From contig NW_003137832.1 in NCBI RefSeq assembly GCF_000003605.2, forward strand, positions 21,742 through 42,186: a stretch of DNA of 20,445 nt, in the 5' to 3' direction. The notes under the pieces were generated by a model that did not search any database, had not been told where the DNA came from, and was given only the letters and a program-made list of their open reading frames with translations. This DNA comes from Saccoglossus kowalevskii (lineage: Eukaryota > Hemichordata > Enteropneusta > Harrimaniidae). Within the stretch, counting starts at the first letter, position 1. Every line of letters begins with the position of its first letter. Position numbers and translations under genes: made by a program. Positions 3,926 through 19,703 of this stretch are shown piece after piece.

Positions 3926-5390
3926 AACAGTCATTAATGAAAACGTCGCATACATTGTGTACAATTCATCATGTTGACCATCTATATCACGCCATCAACA
4001 TACGTCTAGAACTGATGCTAAGCTGCAAGACATCCAGCCCAATCAAATAACAACGTATATTTTTATCAACGCAGAGCCCGAAATTAACAAATATTCTGAA
4101 ATCAATTTCAAGACTCGTGTCAGCAGTAGTAGTCACATACAGCAAGTTTTAGTACGTCTTTATGGGCTTTCTGTGTAAAGGTTACTAATATCAAGAAATT
4201 GGGTATTACATTTCAAGTGTAAGTACCGGTACATTTATTACATTCTTCTCCATATATGGGCATTCATGGCAAGGAAAGTGTACGTGTGATCGTCTTCTTA
4301 TCCCCGGGAGTGCCCCCCCCCCCGAATTGGAATTTGGCACGCATGCTGCAACACAAATACGGTTAATATGGATGGTTTTCAAACAGATAGTCAAGTCTAA
4401 GCACATATTAAAATCGATAAAAAGGATAATTTTTCTAACATGAAAAGATAACCGCAACAATGCTTATTTTTCAATATGCATGTGTTAATGTTAATCTACC
4501 TGGCGAACCAACCGGCGAATCTCCGGGGTGAATCTGCATCTCATCCTAGGTGACGTTCAGAATTACGATGATTTCCCTTCCAAATAGGGTTTGCTATTTA
4601 TGTTTCGTATTTGGAATGGATAGTTTTTTCTTTTCCAAATGTATGTACGTATTTAGAGGCGTGTTTGAACATGGGCGTGTTATCACACTAGTAATAACAT
4701 TCTAGAGATTGAATGCACTTGGTGGAAATAAACATCCAATCCAATCTTTCTGTCGTATACTCTAAATTCTTGTGGCAATATCAACTTTTTTATTATAATA
4801 TAAACCATTCTGTCTATCACACACACATTGTACAGTACTATAAATATATTGAGGCCAACGAATTGTGTGTATTTCCGACATTTGAAAAGTGGTATCAACG
4901 AGGAACCAAAGACACAAACACAATGGTAACAAATGTAATACATAAAATAATACGCTTTCACTTCACATCAATAATTATTACCAAGTCTATTAACAAGTTA
5001 AATTAGAAAACAACAATGGGACAACTTTCTAATCGCATTAAACGAACATTCGCTTAAGATTCTTGACCGTCATCAATATCACATATTTTTCCCTGATTGT
5101 TGTCATTCTCATCATAACAAACAATAACTTTCACTGTAAAACAAGAATTCCGGCTCTGAATTGGTGCGATTTTCAGCTAATCATTGGGTGGGCGACACGT
5201 CACCGGCAATAGGATTGTTTCACGGTTACTAAAAGTAACTGTAATTTATTGTACACGGCCAGTGATTATACAAAACATGTACGTTACATAGATAATTTCC
5301 AAAAAGAGTTTACTAGATAATCAAAACTCGTACTCAATATACTAATTCATAGATGTTTAAACAAATGAATTAGTAAAATTTAAAATAAGT
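3926..5390. other. Non-coding stretch with C11 tract
   Basis: No recognised gene. There is a run of 11 C residues at 4313-4323. Overlapping frames on both strands at 4683-5006 (92 and 97 codons) are hydrophobic and AT-rich, but show no family signature and no codon regularity. Confidence 0.35.
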
Positions 5391-5861
5391 TTAATTTGAG
5401 CAAAGTTGCTGACCGGCAAGGAATCGTACACAAATTCGATACGCTTTTGTTGGTATTCGTAGATTGACATAGAAGACTAATTGCATATGCAACAACGCCA
5501 AATACTACAATGAACGACATAAAGAACGTTTCGCGTTTTAACCAATTGTCATCGATACCCATACCCAATATCTTGCTTTCTACAATTTGGTAGTATTTCT
5601 TCCAGTCATTGAATAATTGCCGCAGTTTAATTTTCTGTCCACAAAGACACAGACAAACTGTGATATTAAAAACGCAATGCATAAACCACATATGTGAATA
5701 TGTGATCATTCGTGTCTTTTGGAATCTAGAATACTGATACCTCGTTAATCGAACCAATTGATCAGAAGCAGCAATGTGTTGTGAATTGTACCTAACTTTC
5801 TTCTTATCACATTGTCTATCTTGAAAAATACGGAATATTCCCGAATACAACCATAATTCGG
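5391..5861 (-). pseudogene. Gustatory-receptor-like (GRL) pseudogene fragment, TM1-TM3
   Basis: This is a broken paralogue of the intact receptor gene at 11767-14051. Read on the minus strand, one frame (5861 to about 5746) gives a first membrane helix containing RRKLGTIHNTLLLLINWFD. It then meets a stop, and a shift near 5745-5755 joins it to the next frame (RYQYSRF). That frame gives TM2 (CVFNITVCLCLC, against CACNATLCFINC in the intact gene) and intracellular loop 1 (LRQLFNDWKKYYQIVESKIL, against LTHFLKVWQRKCQSERSVKL). TM3 follows with VVFGV identical in both. A second shift near 5480 restores LVFYVNL, against FFYQNL. The fragment stops before TM4, and no downstream exons were found. It has no good start codon. 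The shared positions fall in order over about 110 residues, so homology is well supported although identity is low. Confidence 0.72.
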
Positions 5862-7840
5862 CTATGTATGACGTTGGCCCGGCTTGTAATCATATTTTTC
5901 TGTACTCACTGATATATCAATGTATGAACTCGTGTTTTTTCATTGCCACGTTCCAAAATTCCAAAATATCCTGATCAGTACCTACTTAAAAATTCTGAAA
6001 TATCAATATCTACCAGCCACAAATGAAATGATACTGTAACTACTGCGAAATATCGGATATTTATAATATTGTGATTTCTAATTATATACATATAATTTAG
6101 AAGTGCAGAAAAATCACCCAAATTGGTTAAGCGTGACTCAATTTAATAAATGTGTAAGTTGTAATGGAGCAATATACATTAAACTGCATGTTGTCATGGA
6201 AACAAATAAAAAACTCAAAAGTCACGTATAAACCATACAGTCATTGAGTGTAAACAATTAGTCATATGTATGTGGCACCGATAGCAGAGAATATTGAGTA
6301 TTACAGGATTCAATTCAGTAGTCATAGATACAAGTAGGAAGTGCTGTTGATATGAACACTCATAACTTCCAACAATGCACCATAGCGGTTACAGTCAGAG
6401 AACATCTCATAGTAGAGCATCCAGCAACCCAACCCACAATCTTAAAATGAGGATGAATGCGTGACATTTATATGATTTTGGAATAACTTTGAACATTCAA
6501 AGATTACACGAATGAGTGCTTAGATAATATAAATTCTCGGAATAACTATTCCAGTGCTATATATGCATTATTTCCTCTGCAAGTGTTTTGTGTCGACGTG
6601 TATGAAGCCAAGTCAAAATGTCCTCTAATATACAATAACTTATGTTGATTATGTAAGGTTGGAAATGATACTGTAACTCGGATCATAAAGAAATACTCAA
6701 CATATATACACAGCACAGCACGGCAACAAATCGACGACACAAACATGACGCAATAATCTGTATATCGACAACAACAATCTGAAAAACACATCTACATATA
6801 CTAGAATATAATACACAAGCATATTGCAATATAATATCATATTTAGTATATCGAAATATAAATTCCAAGAACACAACAATTAACCTGCAAATAATACACA
6901 AACCCCTACTAGGCGTGTTAGCCTCGTTCGATGCCTTCAGATTTCTAGCTTTATAACGTCGATTCTAACTCGCGGGTCACAAAACGTCAAGCGATACGTA
7001 GTCATAATCCGTATATCTAAATAATGACATAAAACAATACGTAGTCACAATCCGTGGTTCAACGGGTTGTATATGTGGACGTCGAGGTAGATAACTGTTA
7101 AGTGATATCTTCACAATTACAGTTTTCGAAAATATCTGTCAAAAACAAAAAATATTATGGCATCCAATAATTAGTTGAGGTAGTTTTGTACTGGAAACGT
7201 TACGAATGTTTTTTGCTTACTAAATACGTTCATGTTCACTCTCATTGACGTACGACCAAAGTTTGTGTTATTCGGGGTCCAACAATTGGGTCCCTGTTGT
7301 TATCGTTCTGATTTGTTTGTTTGTTTTTACTTACAAGAAAACCACTGAATGGAACAGTGTAATGTGATATGATGACGATGTGTTATGTAGTTTGGCTGTC
7401 ATCTTTAATTTCTTCGATAGGAAAGTACTTAGATCCGATTTTTTTTACAACGGTGCATCTTTTAATCAGTCATAGATTTCGTCTGACAAATATTACCACA
7501 ATTTGGGGAAATTGTATCACACGAGAGCTGTGACCGAACATCTCAAAGCAATGGACAAAGCAATGACAAAATTATTTTAATCCGTTACATGGATTGGCCG
7601 CCATCTTGACTTTCTGCCAAAAATATTCAGACATTTGTTTAAAATGAATGGTTCTACAGATTACAATTCGAAAATCGGGTTGAAGAATCTTTGGTCGCCT
7701 TAACGAAATATAAATATTTTGCATTAGTCACCTGACTCATCAATTTCGATTGGTTGCATACATGAATTGGTTGACATTGATCGAGGGATTTAACCATGAT
7801 TGCAGATATAAACCTGTAACCAATGTGTTGGCATATTTTA
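5862..7840. other. Non-coding stretch
   Basis: No recognised gene. Three overlapping minus-strand frames at 6546-6901 are short and cysteine/valine-rich, without matching motifs. A direct repeat of about 20 bp (atacgtagtca[t/c]aatccgt) occurs near 6994-7012 and 7039-7057. The rest is AT-rich and featureless. Confidence 0.35.
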
Positions 7841-8325: not shown

Positions 8326-8986
8326 TTAGTGTGCGATTTTAAAATACAATAAAGCTTTCTCCCATTTATCTATAAACTCTCCATATTGTTGGATTGTTTT
8401 TGCCATACGTTTCTCCAGGTCTATTATTTGTTTTATACTGTCAACATAAGTATTATAATTTGGTTTGAGATTGTTAAATCTTACTCTGTACAATTCATAT
8501 TTTCCAAGTAGTATTAAGTGCTTCCACAAGGCCTTTGATTGAATTCCTTCTATAATATTGAAAATAATATCTTTCTTTCCAAGTGCAGTGTCTATAAACG
8601 TGATTTTTGTCCATAAAGTTTTGAAAGAGTTCCAAAATGTCTACTTTCCTTACATTCCCACAACAAATGTTCTAAATCCTCTGTCTGGTCACAGTGTTTA
8701 CGTTTATCATCATCAATCTTTTGGTTGAGTTTTAGAAATGAATTTGTTGCGAGAATACGATGGAGTATTTTATATTGAACATTTTTCTTGAACAGTTATT
8801 TGTTTCACGTTTAACCAAATTGCCCGCCAGTCAACGTGTCCCACATATCCCTTTCTGTTGAAAGTGTCTGTGGCAGATGCTTTTTCAAATTTATTAGTTT
8901 TCAGATCGTTATAAAAATGTTGACATTTATATTTTGACAGTTTAGAGGTCACATTCTCTTTCTGTCGCACGGGTAAGATTTTAATG

Positions 8987-9784
8987 TTATTTCCATTGGC
9001 TGGGTATAGCAACTATAATGCTATTGTAAGTGAGAAAATCGACTTTTATATTATATTTACTTTTAAATTGATTGTAAGTTAGGATATTTCCGTCATTGTC
9101 AACCAAGTTGCTCATGGATTTTACTCCTCTATTTACACAGTCGCGGTAGAAAACAAACTTTCCTCCCACGAGTATATTTTTATTATTCCAGATAATGTAT
9201 TGGCTAGGCCGGTCATTCACCGGATCGTTACATTTTTTGGTAAATTCTGCCCAAAATGTAAGAATTTGTTTGTAAAAGCTAGGGACATTGACTGGAAGAC
9301 GATCAACAGAATAGTCACAGTTTAACAGAAATTTCAATCCGCCCAATTTATTAAAGAAATAGTTTGGTATGTGCATCCATGGTGCTTGTGAGTCTATGGT
9401 TTTGTTAATCCAATATAATTTTAATGCCTTGTTCATTAGTTCAAGGTCCATAATTGTTACACCACCCTGTGAATCGTCTCCAATCATAGTTGAATTCTTA
9501 ACATGATGCTTTTTACCTTTCCACAGAAAATTAAACAGAAAAGAGCTGGCTTGTTTAACTAATTGGATTGGTACTGATAAACTATTCATAATGTAGATTA
9601 ATTGTGATGCACCAAAGCACTTTCCTAAAATAGCTTTTCCTTGGATGGTCAAGTCCCGTGATTTCCAAATGTTTAGTTTATTTTTCATTTTTTGTAGACT
9701 ATCCACAACATTTAGTCTTTCATTTTCAATTTTATTATGGCCCAAATAAGCACCTAGGACTCTTACCGGATTATTTGTTGGCAA
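8987..9784 (-). pseudogene. LINE ORF2 segment: RT thumb/linker, 265 codons open
   Basis: This is the longest uninterrupted part of the decayed LINE. It begins within a frame shared with the preceding RT block (GILPTNNPVRVLGAYLG on the minus strand), so the first methionine is not a real start. Recognisable elements in order are VRVLGAYLGHNK (end of the palm), NIWKSRDLTIQGKAILGK, LFNFLWKGKKH, GGVTIMDLELMNKALKLYW and the IIWNNKNILVGGK region. All are characteristic of L1/Tx1-type ORF2 proteins between the RT and the C-terminal cysteine segment. A frameshift at about 9000 passes the reading to the next frame (8770-9012). Confidence 0.8.
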
Positions 9785-9990
9785 TATGCCCTGTGGAAGC
9801 TCCCATACCCCTTACCAAGAAGTACAAGTTCTGTTTTATCTAAGTTAAGCGCTAAACCAGATAATTTGGAAAAATTTGACAAAATATTTAGAGAAACTTT
9901 AAGAATCAGTGTTGTATCATCTGTATAAGCAGAGTATTTTTTGATGGCCAGAGGGTAAAATAATACCTTTAACAAGTACGTTACTTCTAA
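9763..9990 (-). pseudogene. LINE ORF2 segment: reverse transcriptase YxDD block
   Basis: This frame carries the RT catalytic signature YTDDTTLILK (DD encoded at 9916-9921) followed by NLDKTELVLLG, the usual next motif. The stretch before YTDD is shorter than normal for the family, indicating an internal deletion as well as the frameshifts on both sides. Confidence 0.8.
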
Positions 9991-10350
9991 TACAGCTAAT
10001 AACTCGATCGAAATGACAAAAAGTGCAGTTGACAGAGGGCATCCCTGTCTTACACCTTTATGCAGATTAAACCACCCATTGCTGGTACCCCTATTGATTA
10101 CACAACTTTGGGTTTTTGTATAAAAAGTCTTAATCCATCTAATTAATGACGGGCCAAAACGAAAAAGTTGTAAGGCTCTGAGTCAAAGGCTTTTGCATAA
10201 TCTAAAAACAGTAGTGCACCTTTGTTCCCTGTTTCTTCACACCATTCAATAATGTCACTTAATAAACGAATGTTTTCTGTGATCCGCCGACTGATCCTCA
10301 TAGATAATAGATGGCAATACTACTTTATATTGTTTTATATTGGTTGATTC

Positions 10351-11115: not shown

Positions 11116-11645
11116 CACATGTAATAACTTCATAAAAATTGCATGCAACGATGCCTTATGAATGGCTCTACACACAAAAATAACAGCCTGCCACCTGACC
11201 TTGAATGTTATCATTCATATAAACATTATCAGGTCATACATTAACCCGCTTCCGCTTAAGCCCCGGCAAAGCTGCTTGTAACTTTAATTTCACTTTAAAT
11301 TATTCAAGTATCCTAGAAACGGGACGGTCATGCAAACATTACTTAGAGTAAGCATATTGGCGAAATCTCACGCATATATACTTGAAACAGTAAAAGTGTA
11401 TGCTTCAAGATGATTTGCGGAGGGAAAAGTAGCATTTGTATGTATGTGTATCAGTCAGTTCCAACTACTGAATCATGTACATAAAAATGTAATAGTTTTA
11501 AAATCCGCAATGTATATAAACTTAGACGATATATAATACTTAATACATGTAACTATGCACAGTGCAATCAAGTTTGTAAACACAATTCAACGTCATTAAA
11601 CATAACTTTCGAATCGAGACTGCTTGTCAAATAATCGAGAGCTCA

Positions 11646-11682
11646 TATAAAAATGTGGTTTGCTAGGTGGAATTTCACATCG
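11646..11682 (+). promoter_or_regulatory. Possible core promoter of the GRL gene
   Basis: A TATA-like tataaaa (11646-11652) is followed 30 bp later by an initiator-like tcacatc (11676-11682). The spacing suits a TATA/Inr promoter and would leave a 5' UTR of about 90 nt before the ATG at 11767. In an AT-rich genome this match can arise by chance. Confidence 0.35.
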
Positions 11683-11766
11683 CAAGAGTATGCCGTGCTT
11701 CTACGTATTTGAAAGTCGTTTATATCAACTGAGCTTCAATACATCAATAAAGCAGCATTATTTAGC

Positions 11767-12849
11767 ATGACTGATCGACGATTTGGACGAAATGTTCAAA
11801 TCCACCCAAGCGAATCTCAACAGAAGCTGCACAGTGTCTCGCAAAACACGGATGAGAATAACAAAGAGACAAGTAATGACACCCCGGACGATGATATTTT
11901 CCTAGATCGGATTGAGCTTTACAAGGGCATGAAGCTATTATTCGTTTCTATGACGCTGCTTGGTTTACACCATTTGCCAACTGTTACCTACCCGAAAAGC
12001 AAGTTAGAAGATTGTAAGTTCTATTTTATTCGCGCTTACTGCTTTACGGTCTCCACGATGCTCTGGTTTTCGTTTTTCCGTTATGTTCCTGCGGTGTGGA
12101 TGTCCAAAGACAGCGATAGTTTTATTGTAATTGTATCAGTTATGGGTTGGTCATTCCAGTGTGCCTGCAATGCAACACTCTGTTTTATTAACTGTTACTC
12201 TTCAAGTCGACTCACACATTTCCTTAAAGTGTGGCAAAGAAAATGTCAGTCCGAACGTAGCGTGAAACTTGGATTGAATTTGAACCATGATAGACTCAAG
12301 AAAAAAGTAACCGTCGCAGTTGTATTTGGCGTATTCTTTCTTTTTGCAATCAATTTTCAGTTTTTCTACCAAAACCTCTGGGCATCCGATGATTTGAAGA
12401 AGCAAGTAGAACATATTAGATGGCCTTTCGGAGAAGGTGGTGTCATGATCGTGTTAATATTCCTCGCCTTTGCCTCTGCAGCGTTTGTTTTTCCGTTATT
12501 GCAGTTTGTTTTTGTGTGCAGAACTTTATCCGAAGGTATGGTGAAATTGAATGAGTGTTTAATGCGTCAAATAAGGAAAAACGGGACGTTTTTAGGTGAC
12601 CTGGGAGAACTACGAGAGGAGCATCAATGTCTATGCAACGCTATTGAGAATGCTGATGTGTTGTATGGACCGTTTAATCTGATCACCTTCAGTAGTGGTT
12701 TAGTCATTGAAATGTTTTTACTTTATAAGATCATAGCGTATTACAATACGCTGTCAGTATCGGTGATAACTGCGGCTTTATTCTGGATGGTTTATGTATT
12801 TTTCAGTATGTCCCTTGTGTGTTGGTGTGCTGCTCTGTTACACAAAAAC
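11767..12849 (+). CDS. GRL gene exon 1 (codons 1-361, N-terminus to end of TM6)
   Basis: A single 1083-nt exon carries six of the seven membrane helices. It ends after His-Lys-Asn at a consensus donor (aac|gtaagt). Reading through the donor adds only seven residues to a stop at 12871-12873, which would give a protein lacking loop 3 and TM7; that product is an intron read-through, not the likely protein. Confidence 0.9.
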
Positions 12850-14051
12850 GTAAGTATACATACTTATTCATAATTCTTATATTGGATACAGCTTTACAAT
12901 CTTCTCGAAGTGAATACTGAATCTAGATTCGTTATCTGGGATGTCCTTTTTTATTTTAGGCTCACCAACCAGTACATTGTCTACATCAAATATCATTTAA
13001 AGTGTATCCAGATAATACATCATTAATGCAGGTAAGTAAATATATAAAGAAAGATTCACAGATAACATAGAACAGACACACTCAACAGTGTACAATTCGA
13101 CCATTAATTGATTTTCGTAGATCTTTTCACGACCCAGGGATGATCTGAAGTTGTATACAAAATAAACAAAACAAATCATATATTGTTAGAAAGATACAAT
13201 TCTAATCATCAGCTTTAAGGGGTCGTACGACGAGGTTTGACCTCTTGTTCATATACATTGAAGTCCACCTATTATTCTTTCACTGATTTGATCATTTTTG
13301 TGATCTAATGCCCATGTATTTGATTGATTGTATTGTGACTATGAAAATGAACGTTCTCCTTTTTAACTTTAATTAAATAATCTGCCGTTAAGGTTAAGGT
13401 TAAGGTTCGTGTGCAATTATATTCATACCTGTATTTCACAGTGAAGATGGCTACCTGTGTGTTATATATTTTTAGTTAACTCTATGTGTGAATTGTGTGA
13501 AAATTTTATTTGTTCCTCAAACTAGTGAAGTGTGTGCGTGTTTCTCTCGAAAATAGGCCTTTTTTTAGTTTTTTTCCAATCTAACAGACGTACGGAAAAC
13601 ATGTTAAAAATATGCCACGAACCTGGGTCTCATCCTTAAGTATGTTTTTTGTACCCGACAGATATGACTTAGGGTGTTTAAAACATTGTAATTGTTTGTA
13701 TTCCGATAATATTTTTTCTTCAGATGACGACGTTCTTGTTCAAACTCCATGGAAGCAGTATTGGCTTTACATTGTGGGGTTTAGTCTGTATAACAAAGGA
13801 ATTCGTTATAACGGTAAGTACATTTGTGAAACGGGTGATTCTTATGGAGCAGTATGGTCTGATTGTGACACACCAGTACTGATTACCAAAAATTATATGT
13901 TAAATACATAGTTAAATACGGTGTTAAATACATAGTTAAATATATCATGTCGTATCTTCATTCACTTTAGTATGTCTAATATTTACTAATTGTTTTGCAG
14001 GTTGTTGGAGTATTTGTTACATACTTTGCATTGATGGTACAGACGATTTAA
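11767..14051 (+). CDS. Gustatory-receptor-like (GRL) seven-transmembrane protein, four exons, 431 aa
   Basis: The gene is a join of 11767-12849, 12960-13031, 13724-13813 and 14001-14051. It encodes a chemoreceptor-superfamily membrane protein (7tm_7/GRL group, the non-GPCR ion-channel-type family of insect taste and odorant receptors). Order: hydrophilic N-terminus (1-52); the family's N-terminal LG..P segment (LLGLHHLP, 64-71); TM1 about 84-111; TM2 about 118-144; TM3 about 180-205; TM4 about 225-252; intracellular loop 2 with LGELREEHQCLCNAIENAD (279-297), matching the conserved 'L..L...H..L......N' pattern; TM5 about 302-326; TM6 about 331-358; and TM7 from IGFTLWGL to the end. TM7 ends TYFALMVQTI, fitting the TY-x5-Q(F) signature (T422, Y423, Q429) with the terminal Phe replaced. 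All three introns are phase 0, and all donors read GTAAGT. The start is the first ATG in the frame and has A at -3. Length is normal for the family. Ligand is unknown. The gene appears intact. Confidence 0.88.
12960..13031 (+). CDS. GRL gene exon 2 (codons 362-385, intracellular loop 3)
   Basis: A 72-nt phase 0-0 exon between ttttattttag and gtaagtaaat. It reads AHQPVHCLHQISFKVYPDNT and four more residues. The position, the leading Ala and the short helical loop match the small penultimate loop exon of GRL genes. Intron 1 is 110 bp. Confidence 0.82.
13388..13407 (+). repeat. Short (TTAAGG)3 hexamer array in GRL intron 2
   Basis: Three tandem TTAAGG units plus TT. This is too short to be more than a microsatellite. 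It lies within the 692-bp second intron, in which nothing else was seen. Confidence 0.6.
13724..13813 (+). CDS. GRL gene exon 3 (codons 386-415, TM7 first half)
   Basis: A 90-nt phase 0-0 exon between attttttcttcag and gtaagtacat. It contains FLFKLHGSSIGFTLWGLVC and then ITKEFVIT, which closely resembles the conserved 'F.L.L....IGFT.WG.F.I....(I/L)T' segment of the family. The larger open frame over 13612-13911 is a different frame and only overlaps this exon. Intron 2 is 692 bp. Confidence 0.88.
14001..14051 (+). CDS. GRL gene exon 4 (codons 416-431 and stop, TM7 second half)
   Basis: A 51-nt last exon after tgttttgcag. It reads VVGVFVTYFALMVQTI and stops at TAA (14049-14051). It joins in frame to ITKEFVIT of exon 3, giving the family's contiguous '..T-(I/V)VG...TY.....Q' ending. 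Intron 3 is 187 bp. Confidence 0.88.
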   Translation, partial: VVGVFVTYFALMVQTI

Positions 14052-14330
14052 TAAATGTACATCTTTCGGGGTCACTCGGGTAAACCTTACATGGATGAAC
14101 TGTTTCTGAATGCACAAATCACGTAACTTAAAGTCAGTGACTCACCTCTTTCACCGGGGTATATACTGGTATATGTACTATTTTACGGGATATTCATCTT
14201 CATCTATAAATTGTAATTTATAGAAATAGTAGGTAATCTTAGTCATTGGTAATTATTCAATATATGACGATTATTTATTTTAATATAACCAGATATTTCG
14301 GGCAATAGCTCCACTTCAGTGTAATATCTC

Positions 14331-14336
14331 AATAAA
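14331..14336 (+). terminator. Candidate polyadenylation signal of the GRL gene
   Basis: AATAAA lies 280 bp after the stop codon and would give a 3' UTR of about 300 nt. Another AATAAA overlaps the stop itself (14050-14055) and would give almost no 3' UTR. Confidence 0.4.
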
Positions 14337-16268: not shown

Positions 16269-17246
16269 CTGAAGACCCCAAAACTAATGCGAGAGGGCGA
16301 AAAAAAAAAATCTTGCCAAAAAAAAATGCTGCTAAAACCACAGGACTACGGAGCTGTTATTACGAATTGGACCACAGTGTATCAAAAAAACAACAAGTCT
16401 TGATTTGAAGGAGGCACATGTTGATGTACACATCTCGTACTACAATACTGTCACAGGTATCACCTTTGATTTTGAAAAGGCAAGTGGATAAGGCAGGTGT
16501 TAGCTTTGCCAAAGACATACACATCAACTCAATAATGAAGAAAAACTTACTGTGTTGTATTGAAAAAAAAAAATTTAATTAAAATGAACAATAAGTTTGT
16601 CAACAGCAACCTGGAAATTAACTATTACTGACTGTAATATTACAAAATATTACTGACTGTGTGTGCAAGCAAATTATCCAAATCAGAAAATGAAAAAAAA
16701 AATAAGAAACTTTTCTTTACCCCGAAAGGGGACTTCGGCCGAGGAGCTTCCGCTGCTTTCGTTGCAGTTTTGTCGACTTCAATGCGAACAAAGCAACCAA
16801 ACTGACTTGTCGCCTGACCAACTTTTAGGCCACCATACACCTCCACTTCTCTCCCATTTCTCTCATCATTGCAGAAGCAACACGGGACAGCCACTACAAT
16901 AGGACAATATGTCCTTAAAGTTGTCTGGGCAAAACTCGCTTGCCGCTACCTCCGTTTTACCCCTTAACTTGTATGCTCACATATTTTGGTGGTGTGGTCA
17001 CCACGTTTGATCACTTATGACAAAATTGGCACGTTTTGTGACAATCTCCTTCCCATAGGTCTTTGCGCTTTACGTAACGTGCATCTAACTGTGCAGAGTT
17101 TGGTTTTGAGGTAGTCCATAACGAGTTTTACGTCAAGTCGGCACTTTGCGACAATACGAGTCGGCAAGTTCCGGACAGAAAACCGATCTGTGGAGACTCG
17201 TCGTCGGATATTTGTTTTTTTTTGGACAGGCGAAAACTAATACGCA

Positions 17247-17284
17247 CGCGCGCGCGCGCGCGCGCGCGCGCGCGCGCGCGCGCG
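17247..17284. repeat. (CG)19 microsatellite
   Basis: A perfect 38-bp alternating CG run in an otherwise AT-rich window. It ends exactly where the right TIR of the outer transposon begins (17285). Confidence 0.97.
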
Positions 17285-18496: not shown

Positions 18497-19703
18497 CTGC
18501 AAAAACAAAAACAATAGTAAACTGTTTAAAACATGAATACATGCACACACTGATGGTTGTCGACCCTAACCTCACATTGACACTTGTTTTCAACCATTTT
18601 CCCTCACTGCAAGATGATTTTCAACCATTTTCCCCACACTGACATTGATGGTTTGGAACCATTTTCCCTACACTGACACATGTTTGTTGGCAACTATTTT
18701 CCCCCACACTGACACATGTTTGTTGGCAACTATTTTCCCCACACTGACACATGTTTGTTGGCAACTATTTTCCCCACACTGACACATGTTTGTTGGCAAC
18801 TATTTTCCCCACACTGACACATGTTTGTTGGCAACTATTTTCCCCACACTGACACATGTTTGTTGGCAACTATTTTCCCCACAATGACACATGTTTGTTG
18901 GCAACTATTTTCCCCACACTGACACATGTTTGTTGGCAACTATTTTCCCCACACTGACACATGTTTGTTGGCAACTATTTCCCCCACACTGACACATGTT
19001 TGTTGGCAACTATTTTCCCCACACTGACACATGTTTGTTGGCAACTATTTTCCCCACAATGACACATGTTTGTTGGCAACTATTTTCCCCACACTGACAC
19101 ATGTTTGTTGGCAACTATTTTCCCCACACTGACACATGTTTGTTGGCAACTATTTTCACCACACTGATAATTTACAACCATTTCCCCACACTGACATTGA
19201 TGGTTTGGAACCATTTTCCCCACACTGACAATTCACAACCCTTTCTCCACATAGGTCATATATGGAAGTAATGTTGAACTGTAAAGCTTAGCAATTTAAA
19301 TTTCATGAAACAAAATTTTCTAATCGTTACCATACAAGTATCAAACAATGAGCACAGATTTTAATTACACGTCTGAACCTAACAATACATTGGGTATTTA
19401 TGGTTTATACCATCAAACATGCAACATTGACCAAGTAAGTTAGAAATAGTTTGCAAAATCACTAGTTCAATACAGATCTCTTGTAGAATTGAATACAAGT
19501 GCCTTGATTCAAAATGGAAAAAAATTCCAGCTGACTTAACACTGACAATGCCACAATACATATGGTTTTAGTAGTCTGGATGTCAACATGCTAAAAAATG
19601 ATAACTCAAATGTATGAATTAAAGAGTTATTGACTGACTGACCTTAATATTTTCATTGGGCTTGATCTTCTTCCAGGGGTGTGGGTTATTCTTCTTGTCC
19701 CAT
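18425..19703 (-). CDS. NDUFA4: NDUFA4 (cytochrome c oxidase-associated subunit), 3' end, partial
   Basis: Two minus-strand exons (19643-19703 and 18425-18496) join to encode the C-terminal 44 residues of NDUFA4. This is a small inner-mitochondrial-membrane protein first assigned to complex I and now placed with cytochrome c oxidase. The joined reading is WDKKNNPHPWKKIKPNENIK followed by FYSAGKIDYESK and a charged tail. It matches the family's conserved WDR.NNPEPWNKL.PN...KFYSVN.DY ending. The splice is phase 0 between Lys and Phe (aag|gtcagt, tttgcag|ttc). The first residue of the upstream exon is split: its codon ends in A, and Ser is expected from the family's NPDVS/C-W. Exons for the mitochondrial N-terminus and single membrane helix lie beyond 20445. 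The tail (KIHPEIDEKK) is slightly longer than in vertebrates. Confidence 0.9.
18560..19250. repeat. Degenerate related units flanking the minisatellite
   Basis: On both sides of the uniform array lies a 34-bp relative of the unit in which the middle reads ttgatggtttggaacc instead of the tgtttgttggcaac segment (18636-18669 and 19188-19221). Further shortened units with ttcaacc/ttcacaacc centres are at about 18570-18635, 19161-19187 and 19222-19249. All keep the cactgaca and attttcccc ends. Confidence 0.85.
18670..19160. repeat. 35-bp minisatellite, 14 copies, in the last NDUFA4 intron
   Basis: Tandem 35-bp units start at 18670, 18706 and then every 35 bp to 19126. The unit begins acactgacacatgtttgttg, continues gcaactatttt and ends cccc. 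Copies are nearly identical. Variants include acaatg at 18881 and 19056 (exactly five units apart), one extra C in the first copy, and ttccccc near 18981. The array fills nearly half of the 1146-bp intron between the two NDUFA4 exons. Confidence 0.97.
19643..19703 (-). CDS. NDUFA4: NDUFA4 penultimate exon
   Basis: A 61-nt exon after the acceptor ggggcgccag, encoding one split-codon base and WDKKNNPHPWKKIKPNENIK. The frame stays open upstream of the acceptor to about 19864, but that extension does not resemble the family (it lacks the membrane helix and NPDVS), so it is intron. Confidence 0.88.

Follow-up and report, generated by a model that had tools for sequence, protein, structure and literature searches.

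A four-exon gene was identified on the forward strand of the 20,445-nucleotide stretch of DNA that was analyzed as a whole (the window). The exons join to 1083 + 72 + 90 + 51 nt, giving 1296 nt or 431 codons plus TAA, and the ATG at 11767 is the first Met codon after an in-frame stop at 11710. Exon 1 (11767..12849, + strand; 361 codons) would encode the N-terminus, a hydrophobic segment (S0) and TM1-TM6, and exon 2 (12960..13031, +; 24 codons) the predicted intracellular loop 3. An S7a-like segment and the putative start of TM7 are located in exon 3 (13724..13813, +; 30 codons), and exon 4 (14001..14051, +; 16 codons plus TAA) carries the predicted pore helix TM7/S7b with the sequence TYFALMVQT. 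The length of each exon is a multiple of three, and the introns at 12850..12959 (110 nt), 13032..13723 (692 nt) and 13814..14000 (187 nt), all on the + strand, are in phase 0 and bounded by GT-AG (3/3 for both). This arrangement, with junctions at 12849/12960, 13031/13724 and 13813/14001, had been proposed in a sequence-only reading of the locus, and it proved open and in frame at every base given; the joined exons likewise show the three phase-0 C-terminal introns that had been claimed. The same reading let a 368-codon ORF end at the first donor. A frame of 368 codons does run from the ATG to its own stop at 12871, but the donor lies seven codons earlier and exon 1 is thus the shorter unit given above.

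The donor sequences of introns 1, 2 and 3 are AAC/gtaagt, CAG/gtaagt and ACG/gtaagt. Scored as matches to MAG/GTRAGT, they reach 8, 9 and 8 out of 9, respectively, and are the top three among the GT sites of 11767-14100, eight of which score at least 7. Seven acceptors exceeded a pyrimidine fraction of 0.70, led by the one at 12960 (0.86) and including that at 13724 (0.79). The acceptor at 14001 falls under this threshold, and an unused acceptor at 13971 lies above it (0.79); from 13971 an in-frame TAA is met two codons on, making TM7 impossible from this site. Intron 2 is situated directly before the exon of S7a and the TM7 start, and intron 3 interrupts TM7, with six residues between it and the TY of the motif that follows. 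Set beside the text of PMC9998090, the three phase-0 C-terminal introns resemble those described there for Gr genes. Based on consensus only, a weak candidate TATA-like word is found 5′ of the ATG at 11646..11652 (+), with two more at 11513 and 11530, and a candidate AATAAA polyadenylation signal at 14331..14336 (+), with others at 14050 (overlapping the stop), 14519 and 14653.

A second open frame of interest, with 169 codons, is located at 5380..5889 on the minus strand, opposite in orientation to the intact gene. Its part at 5688-5494 aligns with residues 128-189 of the gene product (TM2-loop-TM3) at 29% identity over 65 columns. The alignment scored 36.2 bits without and 31.6 bits with composition correction, and 2000 shuffled versions of the fragment, uncorrected, reached 29.3 at most. 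No Pfam match was obtained with the 169-aa fragment at E up to 10, and a tblastn search of the gene against the window, also at E up to 10, revealed no C-terminal exon below the fragment on the minus strand; a TM7 belonging to the fragment was not found in the window. The fragment is probably a degraded second gustatory-receptor-like (GRL) gene, because the frame stops soon past the region of similarity and stops are frequent in the three surrounding frames, and its presence suggests a local gene family. Alternatively, it may be one exon of a gene whose other exons are far away or have diverged.

Broken retrotransposon-like open frames occupy 8326-10182 on the minus strand. An RVT_1 match (E 2.9e-9) lies inside 9763-10182 (minus), and two database proteins are related to the neighbouring ORF 8987-9811, one of them, 38% identical, carrying PF13966. 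A minisatellite extends over 18587-19251, with a 35-bp unit repeated in 17.7 copies at 18622-19230; periods of 34 bp and 61 bp overlap with it at the two ends. Despite the window-wide CpG depletion, a (CG)21 tract is present at 17243-17284 in a surrounding stretch of 38.5% GC; tracts of this type can form Z-DNA. The CpG observed/expected ratio is 0.74 for the whole window and 1.01, that is undepleted, for exon 1 (11767-12849). Among invertebrate genes, high CpG tends to go with low methylation and restriction to certain tissues, and as a weak lead the CpG level of exon 1 would suit a receptor. Scans of the window with Rfam at gathering thresholds and for tRNAs yielded nothing.

In the Pfam search, the 431-aa product matched 7tm_7 (PF08395, insect chemosensory receptors) with an E of 3.1e-9 and a score of 37.1 bits, the cut-off being 26.6, and no second family was listed besides it at E up to 10. 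The match covers residues 56-429 on profile positions 2-365 of 370, and this near-full-length match of the complete splice model is an independent test against chance. The profile search had been suggested together with the sequence-only reading, and the membership in the 7tm_7/GRL superfamily that was postulated there is borne out above the curated cut-off over nearly the whole profile. Judged by its sequence, the product belongs almost certainly to the 7tm_7/GR-GRL superfamily. The best score was obtained with the last 178 residues alone (E 2.6e-11, 43.9 bits, profile 215-365), in agreement with PMC7746228, according to which the superfamily can be aligned with more confidence in its C-terminal half. 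Exons 2-4 alone (70 aa) still matched 7tm_7 as the only family (E 5.7e-4, 19.7 bits, under the cut-off), and exon 1 alone (361 aa) gave no match at E up to 1. A plain ORF call does lose the diagnostic part of the protein, as had been pointed out, and ORF-based annotation can easily lose the pore helix of this family. A single row from NCBIfam, at E 0.52, was rejected as a chance match.

The Pfam controls comprised eight sequences searched at E up to 10. No match was returned for the model without exon 2, without exon 3 or without exon 4 (0/3), for exon 1 joined to shuffled versions of the C-terminal 70 residues (0/2; two of the three shuffled C-termini made were scored), or for one chimera in which a shuffled exon-1 core, restricted to residues 41-361, preceded the true exons 2-4. 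The HMMER filters discard most matches above about E 0.1, and an absent match thus means nothing stronger than about E 0.1. Since the chimera was unmatched although exons 2-4 match alone, filter or context effects can account for the lack of a match when a construct is long. The exon-skipping controls are therefore weaker than they appear, and it is the positive matches that carry the argument.

The length of the product, 431 aa, is inside the family range of about 350-500 aa reported in PMC7746228. Kyte-Doolittle peaks above 0.9 were observed at residues 55-73, 92-110, 120-138, 181-199, 226-244, 305-323, 333-351, 390-408 and 413-431. These nine hydrophobic segments are compatible with S0, TM1-TM6, S7a and TM7, in an assignment guided by the known fold, which would give inside stretches of 91, 42, 60 and 61 residues and outside loops of 9, 26 and 9. 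Intracellular loops longer than the extracellular ones are a family criterion in PMC7746228, with which the hydropathy pattern is consistent, as a fit to the family and not as a blind proof. The S0-like N-terminal segment (residues 55-73; 11929..11985, +), where the Pfam match starts, is to be expected, since for several members predictions show an additional segment at the N-terminus, which may correspond to the re-entrant helix of Orco (PMC7746228). Folding of the exon-1 protein without an alignment produced a poor model (pLDDT 44.8, pTM 0.29), and a fold search with it against the PDB gave 0/27 matches at E up to 0.001; in view of the pLDDT, the model was dropped as evidence either way.

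The predicted TM7 ends in TYFALMVQTI, in which the nine residues encoded at 14019..14045 (+) have the form T-Y-h5-Q-T. The family form is TYhhhhhQF, or more broadly (T/S)Yhhhhh(Q/K/E)(F/L/M), a motif described in PMC7746228 as diagnostic, not definitive, with divergent members known. Three of the four specified positions (T, Y and Q) are kept and the final F/L/M is replaced by Thr; the TY-x5-Q ending that had been read from the DNA thus holds, and the last position departs from the family form. Across all six frames, the window contains a single TYhhhhhQ, at 14019, for an expected number of 0.06, and the looser (T/S)Yhhhhh(Q/K/E) is expected 0.345 times in window-like sequences, both expectations being derived from 200 order-1 Markov sequences. 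Forms of the motif ending in F or in F/L/M were absent from the six-frame translation of the window.

Searches for relatives were made in several collections. Among 2317 candidates from 5.8 billion predicted proteins, no relative of the gene product was found at E up to 0.001, and residues 250-431 had no relative among 159 candidates from the same collection at E up to 10. The LINE-like ORF 8987-9811 retrieved only its two proteins among 186 candidates, suggesting that animal sequence is sparse in this collection, and the missing GRL matches thus carry little weight. A phmmer search against PDB chains at E up to 10 gave no match, insect chains being included as far as the searched copy has them.

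The product might be an arthropod gustatory receptor and not a GRL from outside the arthropods, a reading otherwise compatible with the best explanation given below. The match to 7tm_7 above its cut-off speaks for this possibility, and insect proteins are the main source of that Pfam model. Several weak leads point the other way: the modest 7tm_7 score, the unmatched PDB chains in the copy searched at E up to 10, the CpG observed/expected ratio of the window, and an excess of TACCGGTA (3 against 0.11 expected). CpG depletion and an excess of TACCGGTA fit a marine invertebrate better than an arthropod, and do not decide the matter. We consider an arthropod origin improbable. A recently silenced GRL, in which the frame is still open and transcription or splicing has been lost, is more improbable still. 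Such a fate would resemble that of the probably degraded neighbour, a partial relative only 6 kb away, and the reverse-transcriptase relic shows that repeats have been active in the window; against it stand 431 codons free of stops and frameshifts, GT-AG boundaries at all three junctions, donors that outscore every other in the region, and a Pfam match over almost the full length. That the gene encodes a membrane protein of six helices terminating at the 12871 stop codon, and that exons 2-4 are read together by chance, is suggested by the seven open codons past the donor and can practically be dismissed, as the first 361 of the 368 residues of such a protein match no Pfam family at E up to 1, exons 2-4 alone match only 7tm_7, and the sole TYhhhhhQ of the window sits in these exons.

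The locus is thus best, and very probably correctly, explained as an intact GRL gene of an invertebrate, whose product would be one of the four subunits of a ligand-gated cation channel. Taken for itself, ligand-gated channel function of the product appears likely by homology, and according to PMC9998090 it is not known for most family members whether they are ion channels. The structure of BmGr9 (PMC11100771) is a tetramer with a cytoplasmic anchor formed by S2, S4, S5, S6 and S7a and a pore formed by S7b. The Thr residues of its motif make up a hydrophilic ring, Tyr touches pore lipids, Gln rotates into the pore upon opening and Phe plugs the closed gate (PMC11100771). By analogy with insect Gr and Orco structures, the N-terminus of the product would lie inside the cell and four subunits would assemble via cytoplasmic helix extensions, and a cation pore in the centre would be lined by the TM7b helices, which exons 3 and 4 encode. 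Opening could then be caused by a small molecule that binds among S1-S6, via movement of S7b, with the motif Gln turned into the pore. With Thr at the position of the gate Phe, the hydrophobic plug would be weaker, and gating might be changed or a partner subunit needed. That the gene encodes a GRL with a modified pore, in which Thr for the gate-plugging hydrophobic residue would make a homotetramer leaky or differently selective, or would make the protein an obligate partner subunit, is a tentative and rather doubtful extension of the comparison with BmGr9. If the partner-subunit reading were true, Orco-like heteromers would exist outside insects. The stimulus of the product may be chemical, but also light or developmental. 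Other roles in the family are not chemosensory, and PMC7746228 cites light sensing in C. elegans and, for Nematostella, a possible involvement in the patterning of the apical body. Little work has been done on the GRL proteins of animals other than insects, and with its exons properly joined the intact gene provides a GRL protein that can be tested.

GRLs are present in many invertebrate phyla (PMC7746228, PMC9998090), and surveys of animal GRLs are cited in PMC7746228 (Robertson 2015, Saina 2015, Eyun 2017); the gene is a further member of this known, ancient family, and its kind is already known. It resembles the GRLs of molluscs, annelids, echinoderms, hemichordates, cnidarians and placozoans in size, in the 7tm_7 domain and in the phase-0 introns at the 3′ end. 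The likeness extends to a hydropathy compatible with seven TM segments, a predicted inside N-terminus, long putative cytoplasmic loops and the T, Y and Q of the motif, whereas the last motif residue is Thr here and F/L/M in theirs. The domain plan is shared with BmGr9, the fructose-gated channel of an insect (PMC11100771); its motif reads TYLVILIQF, compared with TYFALMVQT here, and Thr takes the place of the gate residue F444. With insect odorant receptors and Orco, the gene has the superfamily and the TM7 motif region in common, but its three C-terminal phase-0 introns and the T, Y and Q of its motif fit the GR/GRL type.
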